Origin: Roseivirga thermotolerans
GTDB taxonomy: Bacteria; Bacteroidota; Bacteroidia; Cytophagales; Cyclobacteriaceae
Assembly: GCF_014653175.1 (NCBI RefSeq)
Contig: NZ_BNAG01000001.1
Location: 744,001-808,000 of the forward strand
Length of the DNA stretch: 64,000 nt
Reading direction: 5' to 3'
Part shown: piece by piece, positions 12,413 to 42,427 of the stretch
How the letters are laid out: the number at the start of each line of letters is the position of its first letter
Position numbering within the stretch: the first letter of the stretch is position 1
Made by a program: the position numbers and the translations under genes
Notes under the pieces: generated by a model
Seen by the model: the letters and a program-made list of their open reading frames with translations, nothing else
Told to the model about the DNA's origin: nothing
Database searches by the model: none

Positions 12413-12433
12413 ATGCTGAGCTTGCCGAAGCAT
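12413..12433. repeat. Short REP-like hairpin (ATGCT...AGCAT form)
   Basis: ATGCTGAGCTTGCCGAAGCA plus a final T forms 5-bp arms around the same GAGCTTGCCGA loop seen at 9062-9082. Related forms with a GAGCGAAGCCGAAG core are at 12572-12593 and 12841-12862. Elements of this kind are widely dispersed in Bacteroidetes intergenic DNA. Confidence 0.5.
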
Positions 12434-12602
12434 CTCTCTAATCTCATGCTAGCCTTGGTGTCCTCACCAAGACATTGACAGGCGAATCGGTGAGGACACC
12501 GATTCCGGCTAGAGTTTAGCGAGTAAAGTCATCTTTCTATGCCGAACAAAATCAAAAGCCGATCCCTTTCCATACTGAGCGAAGCCGAAGCACCTGTCCA
12601 AA
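12431..12602. repeat. 172-bp intergenic repeat, copy 1, with nested hairpins
   Basis: This block is repeated at 12701-12871 with about 85 percent identity by eye and one single-base length change. Copy 1 folds well: an outer stem CTAGCC (12449-12454) / GGCTAG (12507-12512) encloses hairpin A (CTTGGTG-TCCT-CACCAAG, 12454-12471) and hairpin B (GAATCGGTG-AGGA-CACCGATTC, 12484-12505). The two loops, TCCT and AGGA, are complementary, and 12457-12468 is the reverse complement of the core of hairpin B. No coding signal is seen. Confidence 0.7.
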
Positions 12603-12658
12603 CGTTCTAAGCTGACAGATACTTCTGCCATAGTCGGGATGGGAATGAAGCAGTGTCT

Positions 12659-12686
12659 ATCAAAGTCCTCTATGAGAGACTTTGAT
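12659..12686. repeat. 28-nt hairpin repeat, copy B
   Basis: Starts ATCAAAGTCCTCTATG and ends GACTTTGAT, with arms ATCAAAGTC / GACTTTGAT and an inner TCT-ATG-AGA. It is the better-paired partner of the element at 9158-9185, on the other side of uvrA. Confidence 0.5.
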
Positions 12687-12700
12687 GGGGGCACTAGAAG

Positions 12701-12871
12701 CATCTGTCTAACCTTACGCCAGTCTTGGTGTCCTCACCAAGGCATTAAAAGGTGAATCGGTGAGGACACTAATTCCGGCTAGAGTTTAGCGAGTAAAGTC
12801 ATCTTTCTATGCTGAACAAGGCCAAAACCGCTCCCTTTCCATACTGAGCGAAGCCGAAGCATCTGTCTAAC
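12701..12871. repeat. 172-bp intergenic repeat, copy 2
   Basis: Second copy of the block at 12431-12602. Hairpin A is intact (CTTGGTG-TCCT-CACCAAG, 12724-12741). Hairpin B has decayed on its right arm (CACTAATTC instead of CACCGATTC), and the outer stem is lost. This copy therefore looks older or unselected. Confidence 0.7.
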
Positions 12872-16595: not shown

Positions 16596-16696
16596 TAAAA
16601 AAGAAAGCGACCCGTAAAGGCCGCTTTAAATGTTTTCACAACGGAATAATCCTTATTGTGACTAGTATTCAAATTGTATTTGAAGCTACACTTAAT
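16596..16696 (-). ncRNA. tracrRNA of the type II-C CRISPR system
   Basis: Read on the minus strand, the segment starts with an anti-repeat (plus 16655-16680) that is complementary to the first 25 nt of the crRNA repeat except for about three positions. Next comes the stretch CACAATAAGGATTATTCC then GTTGTGAAAAC, which gives the usual nexus-like fold. It ends with a terminator: AAAGCGACC (16604-16612) pairs with GGCCGCTTT (16619-16627) with one G-U in RNA, then CTTTTTT on the minus strand (plus A run at 16597-16602). A -7-like TATATTTA on the minus strand at 16708-16701 would start the RNA near 16696, giving about 100 nt. It is divergent from cas9. Confidence 0.88.
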
Positions 16697-16708
16697 TTTT
16701 TAAATATA
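16674..16708. promoter_or_regulatory. Overlapping divergent promoters for tracrRNA and cas9 (candidate)
   Basis: Minus strand: TATATTTA (16708-16701) is one base from the TAnnTTTG consensus and is correctly placed for tracrRNA. Plus strand: TTG (16674-16676) and TAATTTTT (16693-16700) are 16 bp apart and would start cas9 mRNA around 16705, just before the ATG at 16721. The boxes overlap, so the two transcripts may compete. This is motif matching only. Confidence 0.35.
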
Positions 16709-16720
16709 AAATAGCACACG

Positions 16721-19700
16721 ATGAAAAGAATATTAGGACTGGATCTGGGTACCAACTCAATTGGTTGGAGTTTAGTAAGACTTGATTATCAAACTAAAAA
16801 AGATACCTATTTAGGGTCTGGTGAAATCTTAGGAATGGGTAGTCGCATTATCCCTATGAATGAAGCTGCACTCTCAGATTTTGGTAAAGGGAAAACCGTT
16901 TCTCAAACTGCCGAAAGAACAAAGTATAGAGGGATAAGAAGACTGCGACAAAGACATCTACTAAGACGGGAAAGATTACATAGAATACTGAATATACTAG
17001 GTTTTTTGCCAAAACATTACGCACAAGAGATAGATTTTGACAATCGCTTAGGTCAATTCCTTGACCACAGAGAACCCAAAGTTGCCTATCGAAAAAATAA
17101 AAATCAAAAGTACGAGTTTCTCTTTAAGAGCTCTTTTGATGAAATGATACAGGATTTCAAGAAAAGCCAACCTTCATTGTTCTATAAAAAAGACAGTGGT
17201 GAGGAAACCAAGATCCCGTATGATTGGACCATTTATTACTTGAGAAAAAAAGGGCTTTCTGAAAAACTAACCAAAGAAGAACTTGCCTGGGTTATTCTGA
17301 ATTTTAACCAGAAGAGAGGCTATTATCAGCTGCGTGGGGATGAAATAGACACTGAAAAAACAAAACAAACAAGACAATACTTTATCACTGAAACAATAAC
17401 GTCCATTGTTGATACTGAACAAATCTATAAGGGGCTGAGTATTTTTCAGATTTCCCTGTCAAATGGAGAGGTAGGCAAATATTACTCAAAGAAAAGACCT
17501 AGTTGGATTGGAGAGGAAAAGAATATCATTGTAACCGTTGAACTTGACAAAGACGGAAAAGATAGATTGAACGATCACGGTGAAGTAAAAAGAAAATTCA
17601 CTATTCCTTCAGAAGAAGATTGGGATAAAAAATGGCCATTAATCAAAGCTAAAACAGAAGATGATTTAAAAACTAGTGGCAAAACCGTTGGATGTTATAT
17701 ATACGATAAACTACTTCAGAAACCCAATCAGAAAATTAGAGGCAAACTGGTCAGAACCATAGAACGAGACTTTTACAAGTATGAATTCTCCTCAATATTG
17801 AAAAAACAAGTAGGCCTGCAACCTGAGTTGTTTACGGATGAATTGTTTGAAGCATGTGTAAAGCACCTTTACCCTAATAACATCCCCCATCAAACAGATT
17901 TATTGAAGAGGGGCTTTGTACATCTATTTACCGAAGACATCATTTTTTATCAACGTCCACTAAAAACGAAGAGATCTCTAATTGCTGAATGTAAGTACGA
18001 GAACCGGGTTTATAAAGACAAAGAAACCGGAGAAGAGAAGAAGCAATGGTTGAAATGTATTGCAACGAGCCACCCATTGTATCAGGAGTTTAGATTATGG
18101 CAATTCGTTCAAAACCTAAAAATCTATGAAAGAGAAAAACGAGTAAACGGGCTTTTACATGCTGATGAGCATGTAACAAATGAGTTTATTTCTTCCATTG
18201 AAGATAAAGTAAAACTCTTTGAGCAACTCAATGACCGAAAAAACATTAAGCAGAGCACTTTCCTCGGGTTTTTTAAAAAAGACGGAAAGAAATTAACAGA
18301 GAAAACCCATCGCTGGAATTACGTAGAAGATAAGGAATATCCATGCAATGAAACGCGCGCAGGTTTCATCACTGTTTTAAAGAAAAACAAAGAATTTAAC
18401 TGGCAAGAATTTCTGACTCAGAAAGTAGAGGTTGAATTATGGCATACCTTGTACTCAATTAATAAAAAAAATGAGTTAAAGAGTGCATTGGAAAAATTAG
18501 CTAAGCGACTGAATGTTGAGGATGATATCCTTAAACCGTTTCTTGATTTCCCTCCTTTTAAGAAAGAATATGGAGCCTTCTCTTTCAAAGCACTTAATAA
18601 ACTGTTACCACTTCTACGCTCTGGGAATCATTGGAGTGAAGAGCAAATTCACGAAAAGGTAAAAGACAGAATTGATAAAATACTCACTGGTGAGGAGGAC
18701 GATTCTGTTGATAATAAAATAAGAGAGCGTTTACAAAGCTTCAATTCGATTGAAGATTTTCAAGGATTGCCAATTTGGCTTGCTTCCTATGTGGCTTATG
18801 GGAGACACTCAGAAGTTGGCGAGAGAATATACTGGAAAAAGCCAAGCGATATTGAACGACTAGCACAACACTCGCTTCGCAACCCAATAGTGGAACAGGT
18901 CATTAACGAAACTTTACAGGTAGTAAAAGACATTTGGAATCACTACGGAAATGGTGAAGAAAAATTCTTTGACGAAATCCATGTTGAGCTTGGCCGGGAC
19001 ATAAAAAACACCAAAAAGGAAAGGGAACGATTGACAAAACAAATAACTGAAAATCAGAACACTAATCTTAGAATCCGAGCAATATTAAAAGAGTTAATGG
19101 ATGATCCAAAGGTTGAGGGCGATGTAAAGGATTACTCCCCAAGCCAACAGGAGCTACTCAAAATATATGAAGAAGGCGTGTTAACAGCCTCTGCAAAACT
19201 ACCTGACGATATCGAAAAAATCAGCCGAAAAGCTGAGCCCACCAAAACAGAAATTCAAAAATACCGCTTGTGGATGGATCAAAAATATCGTTCCCCTTAT
19301 ACGGGAGAAATGATTCCATTGAACAAACTATTTACCCCTGCTTATGAAATTGAACACATTTTGCCACAATCAAGGTATTTCGATGACTCGCTAAATAATA
19401 AGGTGATCTGTGAGGCTGTCGTCAATGGCAATCCTTATAAAGACAATCAAACTGGATACGAATTTATCTCGAAAAATGAGGGGCGAATCGTACACGAACT
19501 ATCCACGACTCAAAAAACGGTGAAGATTTTCACGAAACTGGAATATGAAAGCTTTGTAAGCAGATATTTCACAGGAAAGAAAAAAGCCATTCTTCTAATG
19601 CCGGATATTCCTGAATCATTTACCAATAGGCAATTGAATGACTCCCGTTACATCAGCAAAGTTGTCATGAAACTCATGAGTAACCTGGTTCGAGAGGAAA

Positions 19701-21499
19701 ATGAAGAAGAAGCCACTTCAAAACATGTAATACCTGTTACTGGAAAAGTGACTGCGCAACTTAGGAAGGATTGGGGATTTAATGATGTCTGGAACGAATT
19801 AATAGCCCCACGTTTCCAACGAATGAATGAACTGACCGGAACCAACGATTTTGGGTATTGGGATGAAAAAGGTGGGAATAAATTTTTCCGAAATAACGTA
19901 CCTGACGAGCTGAAGAAGAATTTTGACCCTAAACGGATCGACCATCGCCACCATGCTCTAGATGCTCTTGTGGTTGCTCTAGCCGATAGAAGACATGTGA
20001 ATTACCTGAACAACAAACATGCTCAAGAAAGGGGAAAAGAAAGGAAAGATTACCGTGCCAATTTATGCTTTAGGAAATATGATGATTCAGGCAAAAACTA
20101 CAATTGGACCTTTTACAAACCTTGGGAAAGCATTACCAAAGAACTTAAAGACAAGCTGGCCACAACAGTTGTAAGTGTGAAGCAGAATAAAAGAATCCTT
20201 ACTAAGACCAGTAATTACTATGAATCCTTTAAAGATGAAATGGGGAGTTTAAGAAGAGATAAATCAGGTCTACCCAAAAAAGGACTAACAAAACAACTTG
20301 ATGGAAAACAGGGGAGTGATAACAAGCGAAACATTTCACTCAGGAAGGATTATCATGACCCAATGCCTTATGGAAAAATAGAATTAGCCTTTGATGTTTT
20401 AAATATTTATGACGCCCTCAACAAAAGAGATTATATAATTGATGAAGCAATACGTAATCAAGTAATCAGACTGATTTCGTATTATGATGGAAAAGAAACC
20501 TTAGCATCAAAAGAATCTAAAAAGCATTTCAAGCAGTACAAGAAGGCAAAAGCTGACTTAGATAAGTTTCAATCAAAAATAGACAAGCTAAATCTTGAAG
20601 AAGAACCTGATCAAAAAGAAATATCCTCGTTAACCAAAAGAATAGTCGAAAAGGAAGAGGAAGTTCTCCATATAAAAGAAACACTCATTATTGATAAAAC
20701 AGGAAATGCAATAGATAAAACTCATTATCAAATAAAAACGGAAAAATATGGGAAGAGACAGCCGTTGGCAAAAGCATTATCAGGGGAAACCTACGATGCT
20801 GTTGTAAAGTCAATTTTTAAAGTAGCTGATTATCAGTTACAACTTGATTTAATTGATCACTTGAACAGCTATTATAGTGAAGGGAATTTAGATTTTGCAT
20901 TTTCACCGGATGGAATTGATAGGTTTAATAGAAATAGAAAAACGCCTATTTACTCTGTACGACTAGCAGAGTCAGGAAGTAGTAGATTTGAACTTGGCGA
21001 AAAAAAAGGGAACAATCATAAATATGTTGAAGCTACAACAGGGAATAACATATATTTTGCTGTTTACAAAAACAGAGAAAGTGGTGAAAGAAAGTTTGAA
21101 ACTATCCCACTAAGAGAATCCTTTGAAAGGTTAAAGCAAGGAGAAAAAACACCAGCCCCTAGGCTTAATAAAGATGGCTACAAACTATTATTTACTTTGA
21201 GTCCAGGAGAAGTTGTATTTGTCCCGGATGAAGAAGAAAAGGAAAACATAGAGCGTGTTGATTTTTCAAACTTGACAAAAAGTCAAATTGGCCGCTTGTT
21301 TACTGTTAATGATTTTTCAGGATACACGATTTATTTTACACCAACCTCATTTGCTAGAGCTATTGGACCAAAGGAATTGGATACTAGTTATGATCATAAG
21401 TTGTCAAAAGTGGTGTTGGGAGATCAATCTGTCCCGATTAAAGACCATTGTTGGAAACTAGAAGTCGATCGTTTAGGTAACTTGAAAAGAGCAAGATAG
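16721..21499 (+). CDS. cas9: CRISPR-associated endonuclease Cas9, type II-C
   Basis: 1592 residues, at the long end for Cas9. RuvC-I is RILGLDLGTNSIGWSLV (D8). The Arg-rich bridge helix is GIRRLRQRHLLRRERLHRIL (about 70-90). RuvC-II is EIHVELGRD (E756). HNH is YEIEHILPQSRYFDDSLNNKV (H879). RuvC-III is DHRHHALDALVVALADRRH (H1077, D1081). All nuclease residues are present, so it should cut both DNA strands using crRNA-tracrRNA. A lysine/glutamate-rich, probably coiled-coil segment lies at about 1263-1327, before the C-terminal PAM-interacting part. No csn2 or cas4 is present, which fits II-C. A 30%-GC-looking upstream region holds the tracrRNA; the RAYT genes separate cas9 from cas1. Confidence 0.98.
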   Translation: MKRILGLDLGTNSIGWSLVRLDYQTKKDTYLGSGEILGMGSRIIPMNEAALSDFGKGKTVSQTAERTKYRGIRRLRQRHLLRRERLHRILNILGFLPKHYAQEIDFDNRLGQFLDHREPKVAYRKNKNQKYEFLFKSSFDEMIQDFKKSQPSLFYKKDSGEETKIPYDWTIYYLRKKGLSEKLTKEELAWVILNFNQKRGYYQLRGDEIDTEKTKQTRQYFITETITSIVDTEQIYKGLSIFQISLSNGEVGKYYSKKRPSWIGEEKNIIVTVELDKDGKDRLNDHGEVKRKFTIPSEEDWDKKWPLIKAKTEDDLKTSGKTVGCYIYDKLLQKPNQKIRGKLVRTIERDFYKYEFSSILKKQVGLQPELFTDELFEACVKHLYPNNIPHQTDLLKRGFVHLFTEDIIFYQRPLKTKRSLIAECKYENRVYKDKETGEEKKQWLKCIATSHPLYQEFRLWQFVQNLKIYEREKRVNGLLHADEHVTNEFISSIEDKVKLFEQLNDRKNIKQSTFLGFFKKDGKKLTEKTHRWNYVEDKEYPCNETRAGFITVLKKNKEFNWQEFLTQKVEVELWHTLYSINKKNELKSALEKLAKRLNVEDDILKPFLDFPPFKKEYGAFSFKALNKLLPLLRSGNHWSEEQIHEKVKDRIDKILTGEEDDSVDNKIRERLQSFNSIEDFQGLPIWLASYVAYGRHSEVGERIYWKKPSDIERLAQHSLRNPIVEQVINETLQVVKDIWNHYGNGEEKFFDEIHVELGRDIKNTKKERERLTKQITENQNTNLRIRAILKELMDDPKVEGDVKDYSPSQQELLKIYEEGVLTASAKLPDDIEKISRKAEPTKTEIQKYRLWMDQKYRSPYTGEMIPLNKLFTPAYEIEHILPQSRYFDDSLNNKVICEAVVNGNPYKDNQTGYEFISKNEGRIVHELSTTQKTVKIFTKLEYESFVSRYFTGKKKAILLMPDIPESFTNRQLNDSRYISKVVMKLMSNLVREENEEEATSKHVIPVTGKVTAQLRKDWGFNDVWNELIAPRFQRMNELTGTNDFGYWDEKGGNKFFRNNVPDELKKNFDPKRIDHRHHALDALVVALADRRHVNYLNNKHAQERGKERKDYRANLCFRKYDDSGKNYNWTFYKPWESITKELKDKLATTVVSVKQNKRILTKTSNYYESFKDEMGSLRRDKSGLPKKGLTKQLDGKQGSDNKRNISLRKDYHDPMPYGKIELAFDVLNIYDALNKRDYIIDEAIRNQVIRLISYYDGKETLASKESKKHFKQYKKAKADLDKFQSKIDKLNLEEEPDQKEISSLTKRIVEKEEEVLHIKETLIIDKTGNAIDKTHYQIKTEKYGKRQPLAKALSGETYDAVVKSIFKVADYQLQLDLIDHLNSYYSEGNLDFAFSPDGIDRFNRNRKTPIYSVRLAESGSSRFELGEKKGNNHKYVEATTGNNIYFAVYKNRESGERKFETIPLRESFERLKQGEKTPAPRLNKDGYKLLFTLSPGEVVFVPDEEEKENIERVDFSNLTKSQIGRLFTVNDFSGYTIYFTPTSFARAIGPKELDTSYDHKLSKVVLGDQSVPIKDHCWKLEVDRLGNLKRAR

Positions 21500-21598
21500 A
21501 GTCCAATAGAACATTTATCTCTACACATAACCTTGAAGATCTTAAGCAAACGTCTAGGCCCCTGCTTAACTAGCCTATGAATTTATACACAATAATCC

Positions 21599-21853
21599 AT
21601 GCAACCAGAGAAGCTATACCACATTTACAACCATGCCAATGGCAACGAAAACCTCTTTAAGGAAACAGAGAACTATAATTACTTCTTAGGGCAATGGTCT
21701 AAATATATCGAACCTATTGCCAACACCTTGGCCTACTGCTTAATGCCCAATCATTTTCATGCTTTGGTTTTAATGAAGAGGCAGGAGGAGGTAGAAGCAA
21801 CTTTTGGAAAGTTTAGAACTTTTCAAAAGTTCAAGGTTCTTAACCATAATTAA
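21599..21853 (+). pseudogene. Truncated REP-associated tyrosine transposase (RAYT) fragment
   Basis: 84 residues closely matching the first 78 residues of the intact RAYT that follows (LYHIYNHANGNENLF versus YYHIYNHANGRDNLF; NTLAYCLMPNHFH in both). The HUH motif (HFH) is kept, but the reading frame ends with KFKVLNHN before the catalytic Tyr region. The point of loss lies in a palindrome: sequence to the left matches the internal palindrome of the intact gene, and sequence to the right resembles the hairpin found after the intact gene. A deletion between those two similar palindromes explains the remnant. It is 99 bp after cas9. Confidence 0.85.
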
Positions 21854-21866
21854 AAAGACACGGCAC

Positions 21867-22457
21867 ATGCAAACAGAAAAGTACTATCACATTTACAACC
21901 ATGCCAATGGAAGAGACAACCTTTTTATCTCCGTAGAAAACTATGAATACTTTCTTAGGCAGTGGACCAAATACATTAATCCGATTGCCAACACCCTGGC
22001 TTACTGCCTAATGCCCAACCATTTTCATTGTTTGGTTCTGATAAAGGATCAAGACGAGATAGAAGCATCTTTTGGAAAGTTTGAAACTTTCCAAAAGCTA
22101 GAGTACCGCCTAAGTAAGCAGTTTGCAAGTCTATTCAGCAGTTATACACAGGCTTTTAACAAACGGCATAACCGAAAAGGAAGCCTCTTTAGCCCCAACT
22201 TTAAAAAGAAGGAGATTACTTCGAATGACTACACCTCCAAAGTAATTGCCTATATACACACCAACCCTATTCACCATAGGTTTGTACAAAACATAAAAGA
22301 CTGGAGGTTTTCAAGTTATCAGAGCATTCTATCGGATAAACCTACACAAGTCAACCGACAAGAAGTGCTTAATTGGTTTGGTGGCAAAAACGCATTCGAA
22401 GACTTTCATCAGTCATATATAAACACATTACCAAGTGAAATAGATATGAATATTTAG
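21867..22457 (+). CDS. REP-associated tyrosine transposase (IS200/IS605-like Y1 HUH protein)
   Basis: 196 residues from the ATG at 21867 (MQTEKYYHIYNHANGRDN); upstream in-frame codons belong to the fragment's tail. It has the HUH metal motif MPNHFHCLVLI at about 53-63, the helix with FSSYTQAFNKRHNRKGSLF, and the region VIAYIHTNPIHH that carries the likely catalytic Tyr. RAYTs are single-copy HUH nucleases that act on REP hairpins. It lies between cas9 and cas1 on the same strand. Its gene contains a perfect 29-bp palindrome (22069-22097) and is followed by a 12-bp-arm hairpin. Either an intruder or a recruited protein; passive insertion is the simpler view. Confidence 0.9.
   Translation: MQTEKYYHIYNHANGRDNLFISVENYEYFLRQWTKYINPIANTLAYCLMPNHFHCLVLIKDQDEIEASFGKFETFQKLEYRLSKQFASLFSSYTQAFNKRHNRKGSLFSPNFKKKEITSNDYTSKVIAYIHTNPIHHRFVQNIKDWRFSSYQSILSDKPTQVNRQEVLNWFGGKNAFEDFHQSYINTLPSEIDMNI
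22069..22097. repeat. Perfect 29-bp palindrome inside the RAYT gene
   Basis: CTTTTGGAAAGTTT, a central G, and AAACTTTCCAAAAG: 14-bp arms without mismatch, encoding residues SFGKFETFQK of the transposase. The truncated copy has a related but imperfect version at 21801-21829. The arm core (CTTTCCAAAA) resembles the arm of the hairpin after the gene. Confidence 0.8.
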
Positions 22458-22462
22458 ACGCT

Positions 22463-22495
22463 AACCTTCCAAAAGTTTAGGGTTTTTGGAAGGTT
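22463..22495. repeat. REP-like hairpin between the RAYT gene and cas1
   Basis: AACCTTCCAAAA (22463-22474) and TTTTGGAAGGTT (22484-22495) pair perfectly around a 9-nt loop. It begins 6 bp after the RAYT stop and ends 14 bp before the cas1 ATG, so it would lie in the leader of cas1 mRNA. It may be the RAYT's own REP target and may affect cas1 expression. Confidence 0.7.
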
Positions 22496-22509
22496 CAAAC
22501 GAACCGCAT

Positions 22510-23406
22510 ATGATAAAACGCACACTCTTATTTGGCAACCCGGCTCACCTTTCTACCAGCAAAAACCAATTGGTTGTCAAATATCCGAATGACGACCAAA
22601 AGAAAACTATGCCCATTGAAGATATAGGTGTGGTTTTATTGGAACATCCTCAAATCACCATTAGTCATACATTGATAAGCAAGCTTTTGGGCAACCAGGC
22701 GGCCATTATCACCTGTGATGCTCATCATTTACCTCAAGGTTTAATGTTGAATTTGAATACGCACCACAAGCAAGTTGCACAAATGAGCAGTCAGCTAGCC
22801 GCTACAGACTCCTTAAAGGGCAAGTTGTGGAAACAAACCATTAAGGCAAAAATCCGGAACCAGGCGGCATTGCTCAAAGCCAATGGTATTCCGGCAGAAA
22901 ACATGGAACACTGGGCAAGAAAAGTGCAGAGCGGTGACCCAGATAACCTTGAAGGAAGGGCTGCAGCATATTACTGGAAAAGCCTTTTCACTGACCTTAT
23001 AAAAAACTTTAAAAGAGGCCGTTTTGAAGGAGAGCCCAACAATCTTTTAAATTATGGCTACGCTATTCTGAGGGCCTCCGTTTCACGCTCACTGATGGTC
23101 TCGGGTCTTTTGCCCACCATTGGCTATCATCATCATAACCAGTACAATAGTTACTGCCTAGCGGATGATGTAATGGAACCATACAGGCCTTTTGTGGATC
23201 AACTGGTATTGGAATTAGTAAGAACCGAAGACAACTATGCTGAACTCACCCCAGCTCTGAAGCAAAAGCTCTTACAAATTCCTGTTCTTGATGTGAAGAT
23301 AAATGGCTTAACCAGTCCATTAATGATAGCGCTGCAACAAACTACATCTAGTTTGCAAAAGTGTTATTCCAAGGAATTGAAGGAAATCAAATTCCCCAGC
23401 TTTTGA
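22510..23406 (+). CDS. cas1: CRISPR-associated integrase Cas1, type II
   Basis: 298 residues starting [23 protein letters not shown], a typical type II-C Cas1 start; the start codon 24 bases upstream is not needed. The metal-binding residues lie in [13 protein letters not shown] (Glu, about residue 150), [28 protein letters not shown] (His and Asp/Glu, about 205-230). With Cas2 it inserts new spacers at the leader end. The 3' end overlaps the Cas2 gene. Its leader carries the RAYT hairpin. Confidence 0.97.
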
Positions 23407-23741
23407 GTTTTGACAGGCTTAATCAATATAGAGTCATGTGGGTAATGGTTCTCTTCGATCTACCGACAGAAACTAAAACCGACACCCGCAATTATCGGAA
23501 GTTTGTGGATATGCTGGAAAAAGATGGCTTCACTCGTTTTCAGTTCTCCATTTTTCTCAGGCATTGCTTAAGTATGGACAATGCAAAAGTTCATATGAAA
23601 AGGGTGAAAATGAACCTTCCACCCAAAGGACATGTGGGTATTTTTCATATTACGGATAAACAGTTTGGCATGATGGAAGTATTTATCTCGGCCAAAAAAG
23701 AAGAATTGCCCCAGCCAACCCAGCAATTAGAGCTTTTCTAA
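23403..23741 (+). CDS. cas2: CRISPR-associated protein Cas2, type II
   Basis: 112 residues if it starts at the TTG at 23403, overlapping the cas1 stop as TTGA. I prefer this to the ATG at 23436 because family members have residues like [12 protein letters not shown] before the first strand. The ferredoxin-like fold shows [21 protein letters not shown] with the conserved Asp, [15 protein letters not shown], and the end [19 protein letters not shown]. It is the structural partner of Cas1 in spacer acquisition. The CRISPR array begins 54 bp downstream. Confidence 0.95.
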
Positions 23742-23795: not shown

Positions 23796-25150
23796 CCTCA
23801 GCTAAGATACAATTTGAATGCTAGTCACAACCAAGCGGACACGGACTAGCAACAGCACCAGCCTCAGCTAAGATACAATTTGAATGCTAGTCACAACAAC
23901 AGGTTGGGGATAACCTTTAAGGCGGAACCTCAGCTAAGATACAATTTGAATGCTAGTCACAACACTACTCTAGCCGAACCAACCAGTCCACAACCTCAGC
24001 TAAGATACAATTTGAATGCTAGTCACAACGGCCGGCCAGCCGGGCATTCAATATAGCCACCTCAGCTAAGATACAATTTGAATGCTAGTCACAACGAGTA
24101 GATACACAATTGCTCGATGATCAGCCTCAGCTAAGATACAATTTGAATGCTAGTCACAACGCTCCGATCATGGTTTAAAACCAATAAATCCCTCAGCTAA
24201 GATACAATTTGAATGCTAGTCACAACTGGTATATGTTCTATGCCACTGGGCAAGAACCTCAGCTAAGATACAATTTGAATGCTAGTCACAACGCGGTTCG
24301 GATCCGAGAGTCGAAAAAGATTCCTCAGCTAAGATACAATTTGAATGCTAGTCACAACATGAGAGTCTATTGGGTCTAAGAGAGGCTTCCTCAGCTAAGA
24401 TACAATTTGAATGCTAGTCACAACAGGTTGTCTCGAACGAAAACCAAATTGCCTCCTCAGCTAAGATACAATTTGAATGCTAGTCACAACCGGCCATGCC
24501 ACCTTTAGAAGCAACAAGTTCCTCAGCTAAGATACAATTTGAATGCTAGTCACAACCGTCCCCTGGAGAATAGTCTGGGACGAATGCCTCAGCTAAGATA
24601 CAATTTGAATGCTAGTCACAACCAGTTATAACGCATGGATTATCAGCCTGAACCTCAGCTAAGATACAATTTGAATGCTAGTCACAACTCAACAAACCTT
24701 CAGACCTGGGCTATTCAGCCTCAGCTAAGATACAATTTGAATGCTAGTCACAACTGCTTGGTGGTTTATGGCTTGGTTTGCCCACCTCAGCTAAGATACA
24801 ATTTGAATGCTAGTCACAACCCAGTAGGCTAGAGTATTCATTCACCACACCCTCAGCTAAGATACAATTTGAATGCTAGTCACAACGCCCCTCAATCAAT
24901 AGACTATGACGGAGGTCCTCAGCTAAGATACAATTTGAATGCTAGTCACAACCAGCCTTGCTTGTTTGCTAAGGTCTTCATTCCTCAGCTAAGATACAAT
25001 TTGAATGCTAGTCACAACCACCAGGTGGTTAGGCTGCACAAAAATGCTCCTCAGCTAAGATACAATTTGAATGCTAGTCACAACAGGCAGAACCGTTGAT
25101 CATTTTGAAAAGCACCTCAGCTAAGATACAATTTGAATGCTAGTCACAAC
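23796..25150 (-). CRISPR. Type II-C CRISPR array, 21 repeats and 20 spacers
   Basis: The 36-bp repeat reads CCTCAGCTAAGATACAATTT at its start and ends CTAGTCACAAC on the plus strand; all 21 copies are identical by eye (first 23796-23831, last 25115-25150). Spacers are 30 bp, except the fifth (24096-24124), which is 29 bp. Read on the minus strand the repeat begins GTTGTGACTAGC, the usual 5' end of type II repeats, and that strand pairs with the tracrRNA anti-repeat, so crRNAs are minus-strand. No repeat is degenerate at either end. The short reading frames that span repeats here are not genes. Confidence 0.98.
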
Positions 25151-41401: not shown

Positions 41402-42427
41402 ATGAGTGATTTTGAATTGATTGAGAAGTACCTCTCCGGGAAACTCTCAGCGGAAGAAAAAAAGGCTTTCAGGAATAGGCTCCTCAACGATCCCGCCTTC
41501 AATCAAGAATTTCAAGAGCTCAAAGACATTCGTCTGAGCGTAAAGCAAAAAGCACGTCAGGACGTAAAAGACCTTTTCAATGAGTTTGAAATGCGCATTG
41601 AAAAAGAAGAAACAACCAAAGATCAGACTGTTATGAAAAAAGTAATTTCAATCGCTGCGAGCATAGTGCTCATAGCAGCAATCACCTATGTTGGGTTAAC
41701 CAACAGTTCCTCCCTCAACAACCAAGAATTATACGACAAGCACTACACAACTTACAACAACTTGGCTGGACAAGTGAGGGGTGCGGCTACTGAGGCGCTG
41801 ACGCTAGAGCAGCAAGCCATGGTAGCATACGATGCAGGAAATTTTGAAGCTGCGACTGAAGCACTCTCACAAGTTGTAACCATGCAGCCAAGTGCCATGA
41901 ACTATTTCTACCTCGGTGTGAGCCAAATGGAAATTGGCGAGTCTGAGGAGGCTATCAAAAGCTTAAACTCTGTTGTGAATAACTTCTCAACATTCAAAGA
42001 GCAGGCCAGATGGTACTTAGCTCTGGCTCACCTAAAAAACAACGATGAGAAAGCTGCCTTAGGGAACCTTGCTCATATTTTGGTGAACAAAAGCGAGTAC
42101 AAAGAAAAAGCTGAAGCTATTTTGGAAGACATGGGCTTAAGCTTTGACGAAACTGAAATGGACAACGGTCCGGTAGTTCAGGTAGAACAAAGACCAAGAG
42201 AAAGAAACACTCCTGATGGCTCAGATGTTGACAATACTCTAGGTCAAAGAAGATATCAGTTCGGTGTTGTTACCAATTTGGCTGGCGACAAAGAATTTCA
42301 GTTCATGACTGATGACCCAATTGAAGATCTAACCGAGGGTGACTTGGCGGTCTTCATGGTGTTCGAAAAGTCAAGAGGAAAAGGTCGCTCTAAAATGGGA
42401 TGGGCATTCGTTCTTGACAAAATGTAA
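41402..42427 (+). CDS. Membrane-anchored TPR protein with anti-sigma-like N-terminus
   Basis: 341 residues. The N-terminus (LIEKYLSGKLSAEEKKAFRNRLLNDPAFNQEFQELKDIR, 5-45) resembles the cytoplasmic zinc-less anti-sigma start seen in FecR proteins. One transmembrane helix lies at about 80-100 (VISIAASIVLIAAITYVG). TPR units follow at about 138-235 (QAMVAYDAGNFEAATEALSQVVTMQPSAMNYFYLGVSQMEIGESEEAIKSL-type). The last 60 residues contain a compact unknown domain (QFGVVTNLAGDKEFQFM). It probably restrains the upstream sigma factor and senses the periplasm through its TPRs. Confidence 0.8.
   Translation: MSDFELIEKYLSGKLSAEEKKAFRNRLLNDPAFNQEFQELKDIRLSVKQKARQDVKDLFNEFEMRIEKEETTKDQTVMKKVISIAASIVLIAAITYVGLTNSSSLNNQELYDKHYTTYNNLAGQVRGAATEALTLEQQAMVAYDAGNFEAATEALSQVVTMQPSAMNYFYLGVSQMEIGESEEAIKSLNSVVNNFSTFKEQARWYLALAHLKNNDEKAALGNLAHILVNKSEYKEKAEAILEDMGLSFDETEMDNGPVVQVEQRPRERNTPDGSDVDNTLGQRRYQFGVVTNLAGDKEFQFMTDDPIEDLTEGDLAVFMVFEKSRGKGRSKMGWAFVLDKM

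Follow-up and report, generated by a model that had tools for sequence, protein, structure and literature searches.

Upstream of cas9 in Roseivirga thermotolerans, a feature on the minus strand is, judging by its sequence, almost certainly the gene for the tracrRNA of a type II-C CRISPR-Cas9 locus. The feature lies in a stretch of 64,000 nucleotides, called here the window. In type II systems the repeat of the crRNA pairs with tracrRNA, and Cas9 binds the pair and cuts. A Cas9-type immune system needs such a small helper RNA. This tracrRNA beside cas9 is genuine but ordinary, of a highly conserved type common to many related bacteria. A RAYT-like gene at the same locus is more interesting and is the part most worth follow-up.

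The cas9 locus and its array

The features of the locus, in window positions, are these:

16597..16693, minus strand: tracrRNA gene, from the covariance model match and the core in relatives; 5' end uncertain (about 16693 or about 16674)
16597..16627, minus strand: rho-independent terminator, 10-pair stem (5 G-C) and T-rich tail
16637..16661, minus strand: conserved core TCACAATAAGGATTATTCCGTTGTG, with the anti-repeat end, the nexus hairpin GGA-UUAU-UCC and GUUGUG
16656..16679, minus strand: anti-repeat ATACAATTTGAATACTAGTCACAA, from letter pattern and duplex energy
16681..16688, minus strand: candidate -7 box TAGCTTCA, 4 of 6 to TAnnTTTG, at the commonest box place of relatives
16701..16708, minus strand: candidate -7 box TATATTTA, 5 of 6, also in same-genus locus L043
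16721..21499, plus strand: cas9, 1592 aa (TIGR01865, E 9.7e-118; HNH_4, RuvC_III and bridge-helix Pfam models)
21599..21835, plus strand: truncated tandem RAYT-like copy, 75% identical over 79 aa
21867..22457, plus strand: RAYT-like HUH transposase gene, 196 aa (NF047646, 68.6 bits; NHFH and YIHTNP motifs)
22510..23406, plus strand: cas1, type II, NMENI type (TIGR03639, E 4.8e-90)
23361..23741, plus strand: cas2 (TIGR01573, PF09827), ORF as listed, whose true start may be further in
23796..25150, minus strand: CRISPR array with 20 spacers of 29-30 nt between 21 identical 36-nt repeats

With cas9, cas1, cas2 and an array all present and the genes uninterrupted, the locus fits type II-C. The cas1 start was taken at an internal ATG of an ORF that itself begins at 22486. 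As to csn2 and cas4, which type II-C operons lack, the ORFs of at least 90 aa within 16721-23741 comprise cas9, cas1, cas2 and the RAYT-like gene only. On the minus strand, the strand fixed by the anti-repeat, the crRNA repeat reads GTTGTGACTAGCATTCAAATTGTATCTTAGCTGAGG. A point against the tracrRNA reading is that no protospacer turned up: the array had no match in phages or plasmids, the 22-nt seeds of 4 of the 20 spacers had none among IMG/VR viral contigs, and, with up to 5 mismatches allowed, no spacer matched the rest of the window. Elsewhere in the window, at 12427-12870, there are two apparently non-coding copies of about 175 nt, 88-91% alike and about 270 nt apart from start to start.

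Parts of the tracrRNA gene and its predicted action

The preliminary description of this DNA had listed an anti-repeat, a nexus-like sequence and a terminator with a T run, and all were found on the minus strand. The anti-repeat is complementary to the repeat of the local array, and a nexus and a 3' terminator hairpin lie downstream of it, as in type II-C tracrRNAs. Directly after the anti-repeat comes TAAGGATTATTCCGTTGTGAAAACATTTAA, then the terminator hairpin with its T-rich tail; the stem spans 16604-16627 and CTTTTTT follows. Terminator-like sites number three on both strands of a 601-base region, against 0.5 expected from shuffles. Folding with the crRNA repeat, proposed earlier as a check, gave the duplex: against the minus-strand repeat (GTTGTGACTAGCATTCAAATTGTAT...) the anti-repeat pairs over 24 nt with one C.A mismatch, at -36.1 kcal/mol with upstream bases and -30.9 kcal/mol without them. 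The gene does stand head-to-head with cas9, as had been claimed; its TCACAA core and the start of cas9 are 59 nt apart.

Sequence and comparison show the anti-repeat, the core, the terminator, the orientation and, across loci, the matching of each anti-repeat to its own repeat. Transcription of the tracrRNA would run leftwards, away from cas9, from a putative start site upstream of the anti-repeat or near its beginning, and would end at the rho-independent terminator near 16597. In crRNAs read from the minus strand of the array, the repeat portion is the predicted partner of the anti-repeat. By analogy with type II systems, Cas9 would bind this duplex as well as the nexus and the 3' hairpins and, once loaded, would presumably cut matching DNA.

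Uniqueness of the site in the genome

A covariance model was trained on 12 relatives, with the window and same-genus locus L043 left out. Against the 64 kb it returned a single match, at 16600-16681 on the minus strand (E 3.5e-16), and so recovered the tracrRNA where it had been placed. On the opposite side, the Rfam tracrRNA model RF02348 gave the site only 16.8 bits against a gathering threshold of 70 (E 5, search of 601 bases), and because of this score the site is not filed under that family; across the whole window nothing in Rfam reached gathering, and near the site there were sub-threshold matches only. A model built from 12 relatives therefore recognises a tracrRNA that is missed by Rfam's.

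Leaving the array aside, no place in the window forms a stronger duplex with the repeat than the site does, at -36.1 kcal/mol, but energy alone does not single it out, because a runner-up at 41900 reaches -33.0 kcal/mol. Uniqueness rests instead on letter identity of the anti-repeat. Searched through the genome at up to 3 mismatches, the 22-nt anti-repeat pattern (16656-16677) matched the 21 array copies and, on the other strand, the site, with no further matches and none for reversed controls. The 23-nt core piece AAGGATTATTCCGTTGTGAAAAC occurs once in the genome at the same tolerance.

These searches bear on the idea that the true tracrRNA lies elsewhere and that the site is a second, minor copy. 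Some relatives do have two tracrRNA-like genes (L056, L057 and L139), but this genome, 99.99% complete, holds neither another anti-repeat outside the array nor a second core piece at up to 3 mismatches, and we give the idea next to no credence. The better anti-repeat elsewhere in the genome that the preliminary description had named as counter-evidence did not turn up at that tolerance.

Anti-repeat and repeat change together

In a swap test over 54 distinct loci, duplexes of each anti-repeat with its own repeat averaged -31.4, against -23.0 (sd 0.49) for permuted pairings, and none of 2000 permutations was as low as the own pairing. The anti-repeat thus changes together with the repeat across loci, as a type II-C tracrRNA should. 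Locus by locus, the own repeat was best or tied in only 19 of the 54; in 52 it paired more strongly than the other repeats did on average, and in two it did no better than that average. For the window anti-repeat, its own repeat is the best of the 54. A compensated change is visible within the genus: L043 pairs repeat CTAGCTTTC with anti-repeat GAAAACTAG, and the window pairs CTAGCATTC with GAATACTAG.

Because the anti-repeat matches its own repeat, the crRNA is read from the minus strand. The strand of the tracrRNA is also that of the GTTGT-starting repeat in 58 of 59 loci with a detectable repeat, which bears out the earlier claim that the gene fixes crRNA orientation. The 59th, L046, has repeats that start GTTGT on both strands, and its strand was set by hand for the swap test. 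The guide strand of the array is thereby fixed as minus, as any protospacer or PAM analysis needs.

Carrying the pairing on upstream, beyond 16680, gains 5.2 kcal/mol for the window and 4.6 for L043; shuffles do as well in 6.1% and 4.5% of cases, respectively. Ten other loci showed no such effect, with at least 19% of shuffles as good. An extended anti-repeat upstream of 16680 is suggestive only.

A self-sequestering hairpin in free tracrRNA (CACAAU with GUUGUG), picked by RNAalifold, was dropped for want of convincing covariation. Among the 82 Cas9-found loci in which it was checked, a loosely defined core pattern picks out 48, probably with some chance matches, and these represent 13 sequence types. 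All pairs survive in 36 of the 48 loci but in no more than 2 of the 13 types; where the sequence varies, then, it mostly disrupts pairing in the fixed register.

Promoters and start site

Of 62 distinct loci, 52 have on the tracrRNA strand a box resembling TAnnTTTG (at least 5 of 6) that precedes the core by 14-34 nt, where mononucleotide shuffles give a mean of 25 and a maximum of 34; exact boxes occur in 17 loci, against a shuffled mean of 1.5 and maximum of 5. The loci are related, so these counts are not independent. With the commonest distance from box to core, 19-21 nt, the usual start falls close to where the anti-repeat begins.

In the window the box at that place, TAGCTTCA, is weak and would give a start at about 16674. 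The better box, TATATTTA, 20 bases farther up, would give a start at about 16693. A 5-of-6 box at its distance (39 nt) is present in 8 of 62 loci; the best box of each locus had been sought only at 12-36 nt before the core. The longer repeat duplex would favour the upstream start, but shuffles reach it at the 6.1% and 4.5% rates given above. The 5' end near 16696 of the preliminary description is accordingly plausible, with the TATATTTA start close by, but not established, about 16674 being the alternative. A sigma-70 scan found one site, against 1.4 expected, no more than chance would give.

The weak box is one of two points for reading the locus as a dead remnant, a recognisable tracrRNA whose transcription was lost through promoter decay: the box at the usual place has 4 of 6, and decayed relatives exist, in genomes G309 (stops in two cas9 matches) and G246 (an orphan tracrRNA). 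Against this, the 1592-aa Cas9 frame is uninterrupted, cas1, cas2 and 21 identical repeats are present, core and terminator are complete, and the 5-of-6 box 20 bases farther up recurs in L043. We regard decay as very improbable, and a tracrRNA gene that could still be transcribed as the preferred reading.

The gene had also been described as having promoter boxes that overlap those of cas9. The cas9-facing half of that claim is unsupported, since such boxes occur in 26 of 63 loci, against 31.9 expected from shuffles, with no enrichment. The same count weighs against taking the site for an inverted stray repeat that encodes no RNA and serves only as a promoter or regulatory site of cas9. On its plus strand the anti-repeat does keep TTG-N18-TATTTGAA, a weak echo of a possible repeat promoter, but core and terminator are conserved together among relatives. 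We consider a stray repeat exceedingly unlikely, and retain the tracrRNA gene.

The window repeat has TTG, 18 nt and then TATCTTAG. By analogy with Flavobacterium II-C arrays, each repeat may carry its own promoter of this form. Of 49 distinct repeats, which are related to one another, 10 have a -7 box of at least 4 of 6 at position 23 and 37 have one at position 24. Boxes of 5 of 6 anywhere in the repeat occur in 23 of the 49 (15 of 49 on the other strand), no excess over shuffles with a mean of 14.8 and a maximum of 27, and the in-repeat -7 box is not proven.

Distribution among relatives

Relatives by Cas9 protein came from 23 of 99 genomes, plus L009; a related-locus search using Cas9 gave one relative only, L009. 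The core pattern at up to 3 mismatches occurs in 4 of 19 genus genomes, and the 25-nt core at up to 2 mismatches in 71 of 390 family genomes, the own genome being included in both counts; a reversed control of the latter gave 0. In the phylum, 67 of 392 genomes score above the cut-off of the Cas9 family model. From among the matches listed, 20 stretches were taken for comparison in the Cas9 set, 65 in the core set and 60 in the phylum set.

Core and cas9 were compared in 87 loci, of which 22 were found by Cas9 and 65 chosen by the core itself. The core (up to 3 mismatches) is present in 82 of the 87 and in 17 of the 22 Cas9-found loci. The 17 include L056 and L057, where it lies well away from cas9, and the five without it include L048, which is cut by a contig end. 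The Cas9 N-terminus motif is on the strand opposite the core in 76 of the 82 core loci, within 100 nt in 68 of these; in the other six it was not in reach. In the phylum set, joined by eight loci from the earlier sets, 58 loci had both a candidate anti-repeat and a known start of cas9, and 45 of these counted as head-to-head. The count is loose and takes in same-strand candidates within 300 nt, because the energy search can choose the complementary strand; the other 13 were only listed.

Some relatives depart from the common arrangement. In L056, L057 and L139 a single cas9 has two tracrRNA-like genes upstream, each of a different class: a GGCTATAAGCC or GGCTTTAAGCC type adjoins cas9 and a GGATTATTCC type lies farther up. 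The genomes of L056 (G079) and L057 (G094) yielded a single cas9 each, and that of L139 (G266) two. In L057 the distal gene pairs better with the array repeat (-24.8 vs -19.7). L116, in G246, has an orphan core at about 1559-1583 on the minus strand, which follows immediately on a partial CRISPR repeat of that strand and adjoins a RAYT-like gene; the best Cas9-family match of that genome is 32.7 bits over 89 positions. This arrangement looks like a natural single guide RNA, or else like what is left of a decayed locus. G309 has the same tracrRNA core and array repeat in three copies (L131, L132 and L133), and two accompanying cas9 genes have stop codons inside the match.

Comparison with described systems

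Type II-C of Neisseria meningitidis, like the window, has GTTGT repeats and ACAATAAGG at the end of the anti-repeat. Its nexus sequence is different from that of the window, and its Cas9 is much smaller. It also shares with the window the subtype and, as far as the available portions of the sources tell, promoters inside repeats, which in the window are a possibility.

Within Bacteroidota, a putative tracrRNA upstream of cas9 in II-C loci is already in print (PMC5006608, PMC10309648, in the portions available). The preliminary description had called the position unpredicted, yet with these precedents from Riemerella anatipestifer and Flavobacterium psychrophilum it is not unexpected. The available text of PMC5006608 gives R. 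anatipestifer CRISPR1 (II-C) a putative tracrRNA with a 16-nt anti-repeat, TGAAAGCAATTCACAA, upstream of cas9, describes the locus as having cas1, cas2 and cas9 only, and reports no promoters found in the repeats. Going by that text, the anti-repeat ends TTCACAA, as in many relatives of the window, but has 16 nt against 24 in the window, and the repeat 47 nt against 36. In F. psychrophilum, cas9 lies between tracrRNA and cas1 (PMC10309648, accessible part). Promoters encoded in the repeats, TTG (-33), have been proposed for F. psychrophilum and F. columnare on the basis of a TTG motif upstream of each spacer (PMC10309648, PMC8092290, accessible parts). According to the excerpted PMC8092290, F. 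columnare likewise has 36-bp repeats starting GTTGT; it differs in having parDE between cas9 and the array, where the window has the RAYT-like gene between cas9 and cas1. The string AAGGATTATTCCGTTGTG found no match in the literature text searched, which does not mean that it is unpublished.

A RAYT-like gene between cas9 and cas1

The RAYT-like protein scores 68.6 bits with NF047646, below the cut-off of 80, and has no Pfam match at 0.001. No relative of it was found outside the locus in the genome of the window at E 0.001 or better. It was counted in 76 cas9 loci of relatives, mostly chosen by the tracrRNA core. Downstream of cas9, 71 of the 76 have cas1 on the same strand, and 41 of these 71 have a RAYT-like gene in between on the cas strand (e.g. 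L040, L043, L047 and L101; also L105-L110, L144, L149 and L155). The remaining 30 have none there, and one of the 76 loci has a relative of the gene on the opposite strand. The proteins are mostly of 190-215 aa, and in 16 of the 41 the gene starts within 20 nt of the cas9 stop. In the phylum-wide set 1 of 40 loci has such a gene between cas9 and cas1. The HUH motif is present in 37 of 38 loci with a protein of at least 180 aa (37 loci of the relatives set, plus L203). Distances of the RAYT-like protein and Cas1 correlate with r 0.79, those of Cas9 and Cas1 with 0.25 and of Cas9 and the RAYT-like protein with 0.21, shared species history not being separated out. Relatives of the protein occur in 64 of 148 family genomes, many of them, by coordinates, outside CRISPR loci.

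The RAYT-like gene has the look of an established part of the operon, not of a stray insertion. Much more tentatively, and with the odds against it, the family could have a II-C variant with an operon of cas9, RAYT-like HUH endonuclease, cas1 and cas2, in which a domesticated REP-type transposase would work with Cas1-Cas2 on single-stranded DNA ends in spacer acquisition. On that reading the tracrRNA would be a conserved component of a module that has one protein more than usual, and type II-C adaptation would have a new accessory if the RAYT-like gene belonged to the system. In the main text of a survey of these proteins (PMC6006769), as far as it was available, the word CRISPR is absent.

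Just behind the RAYT-like gene, at 22463-22498, is an imperfect palindrome, AACCTTCCAAAAG...TTTTTGGAAGGTT, that could be a REP-like element. Both RAYT copies contain a sequence similar to it, at 21799 and 22067.
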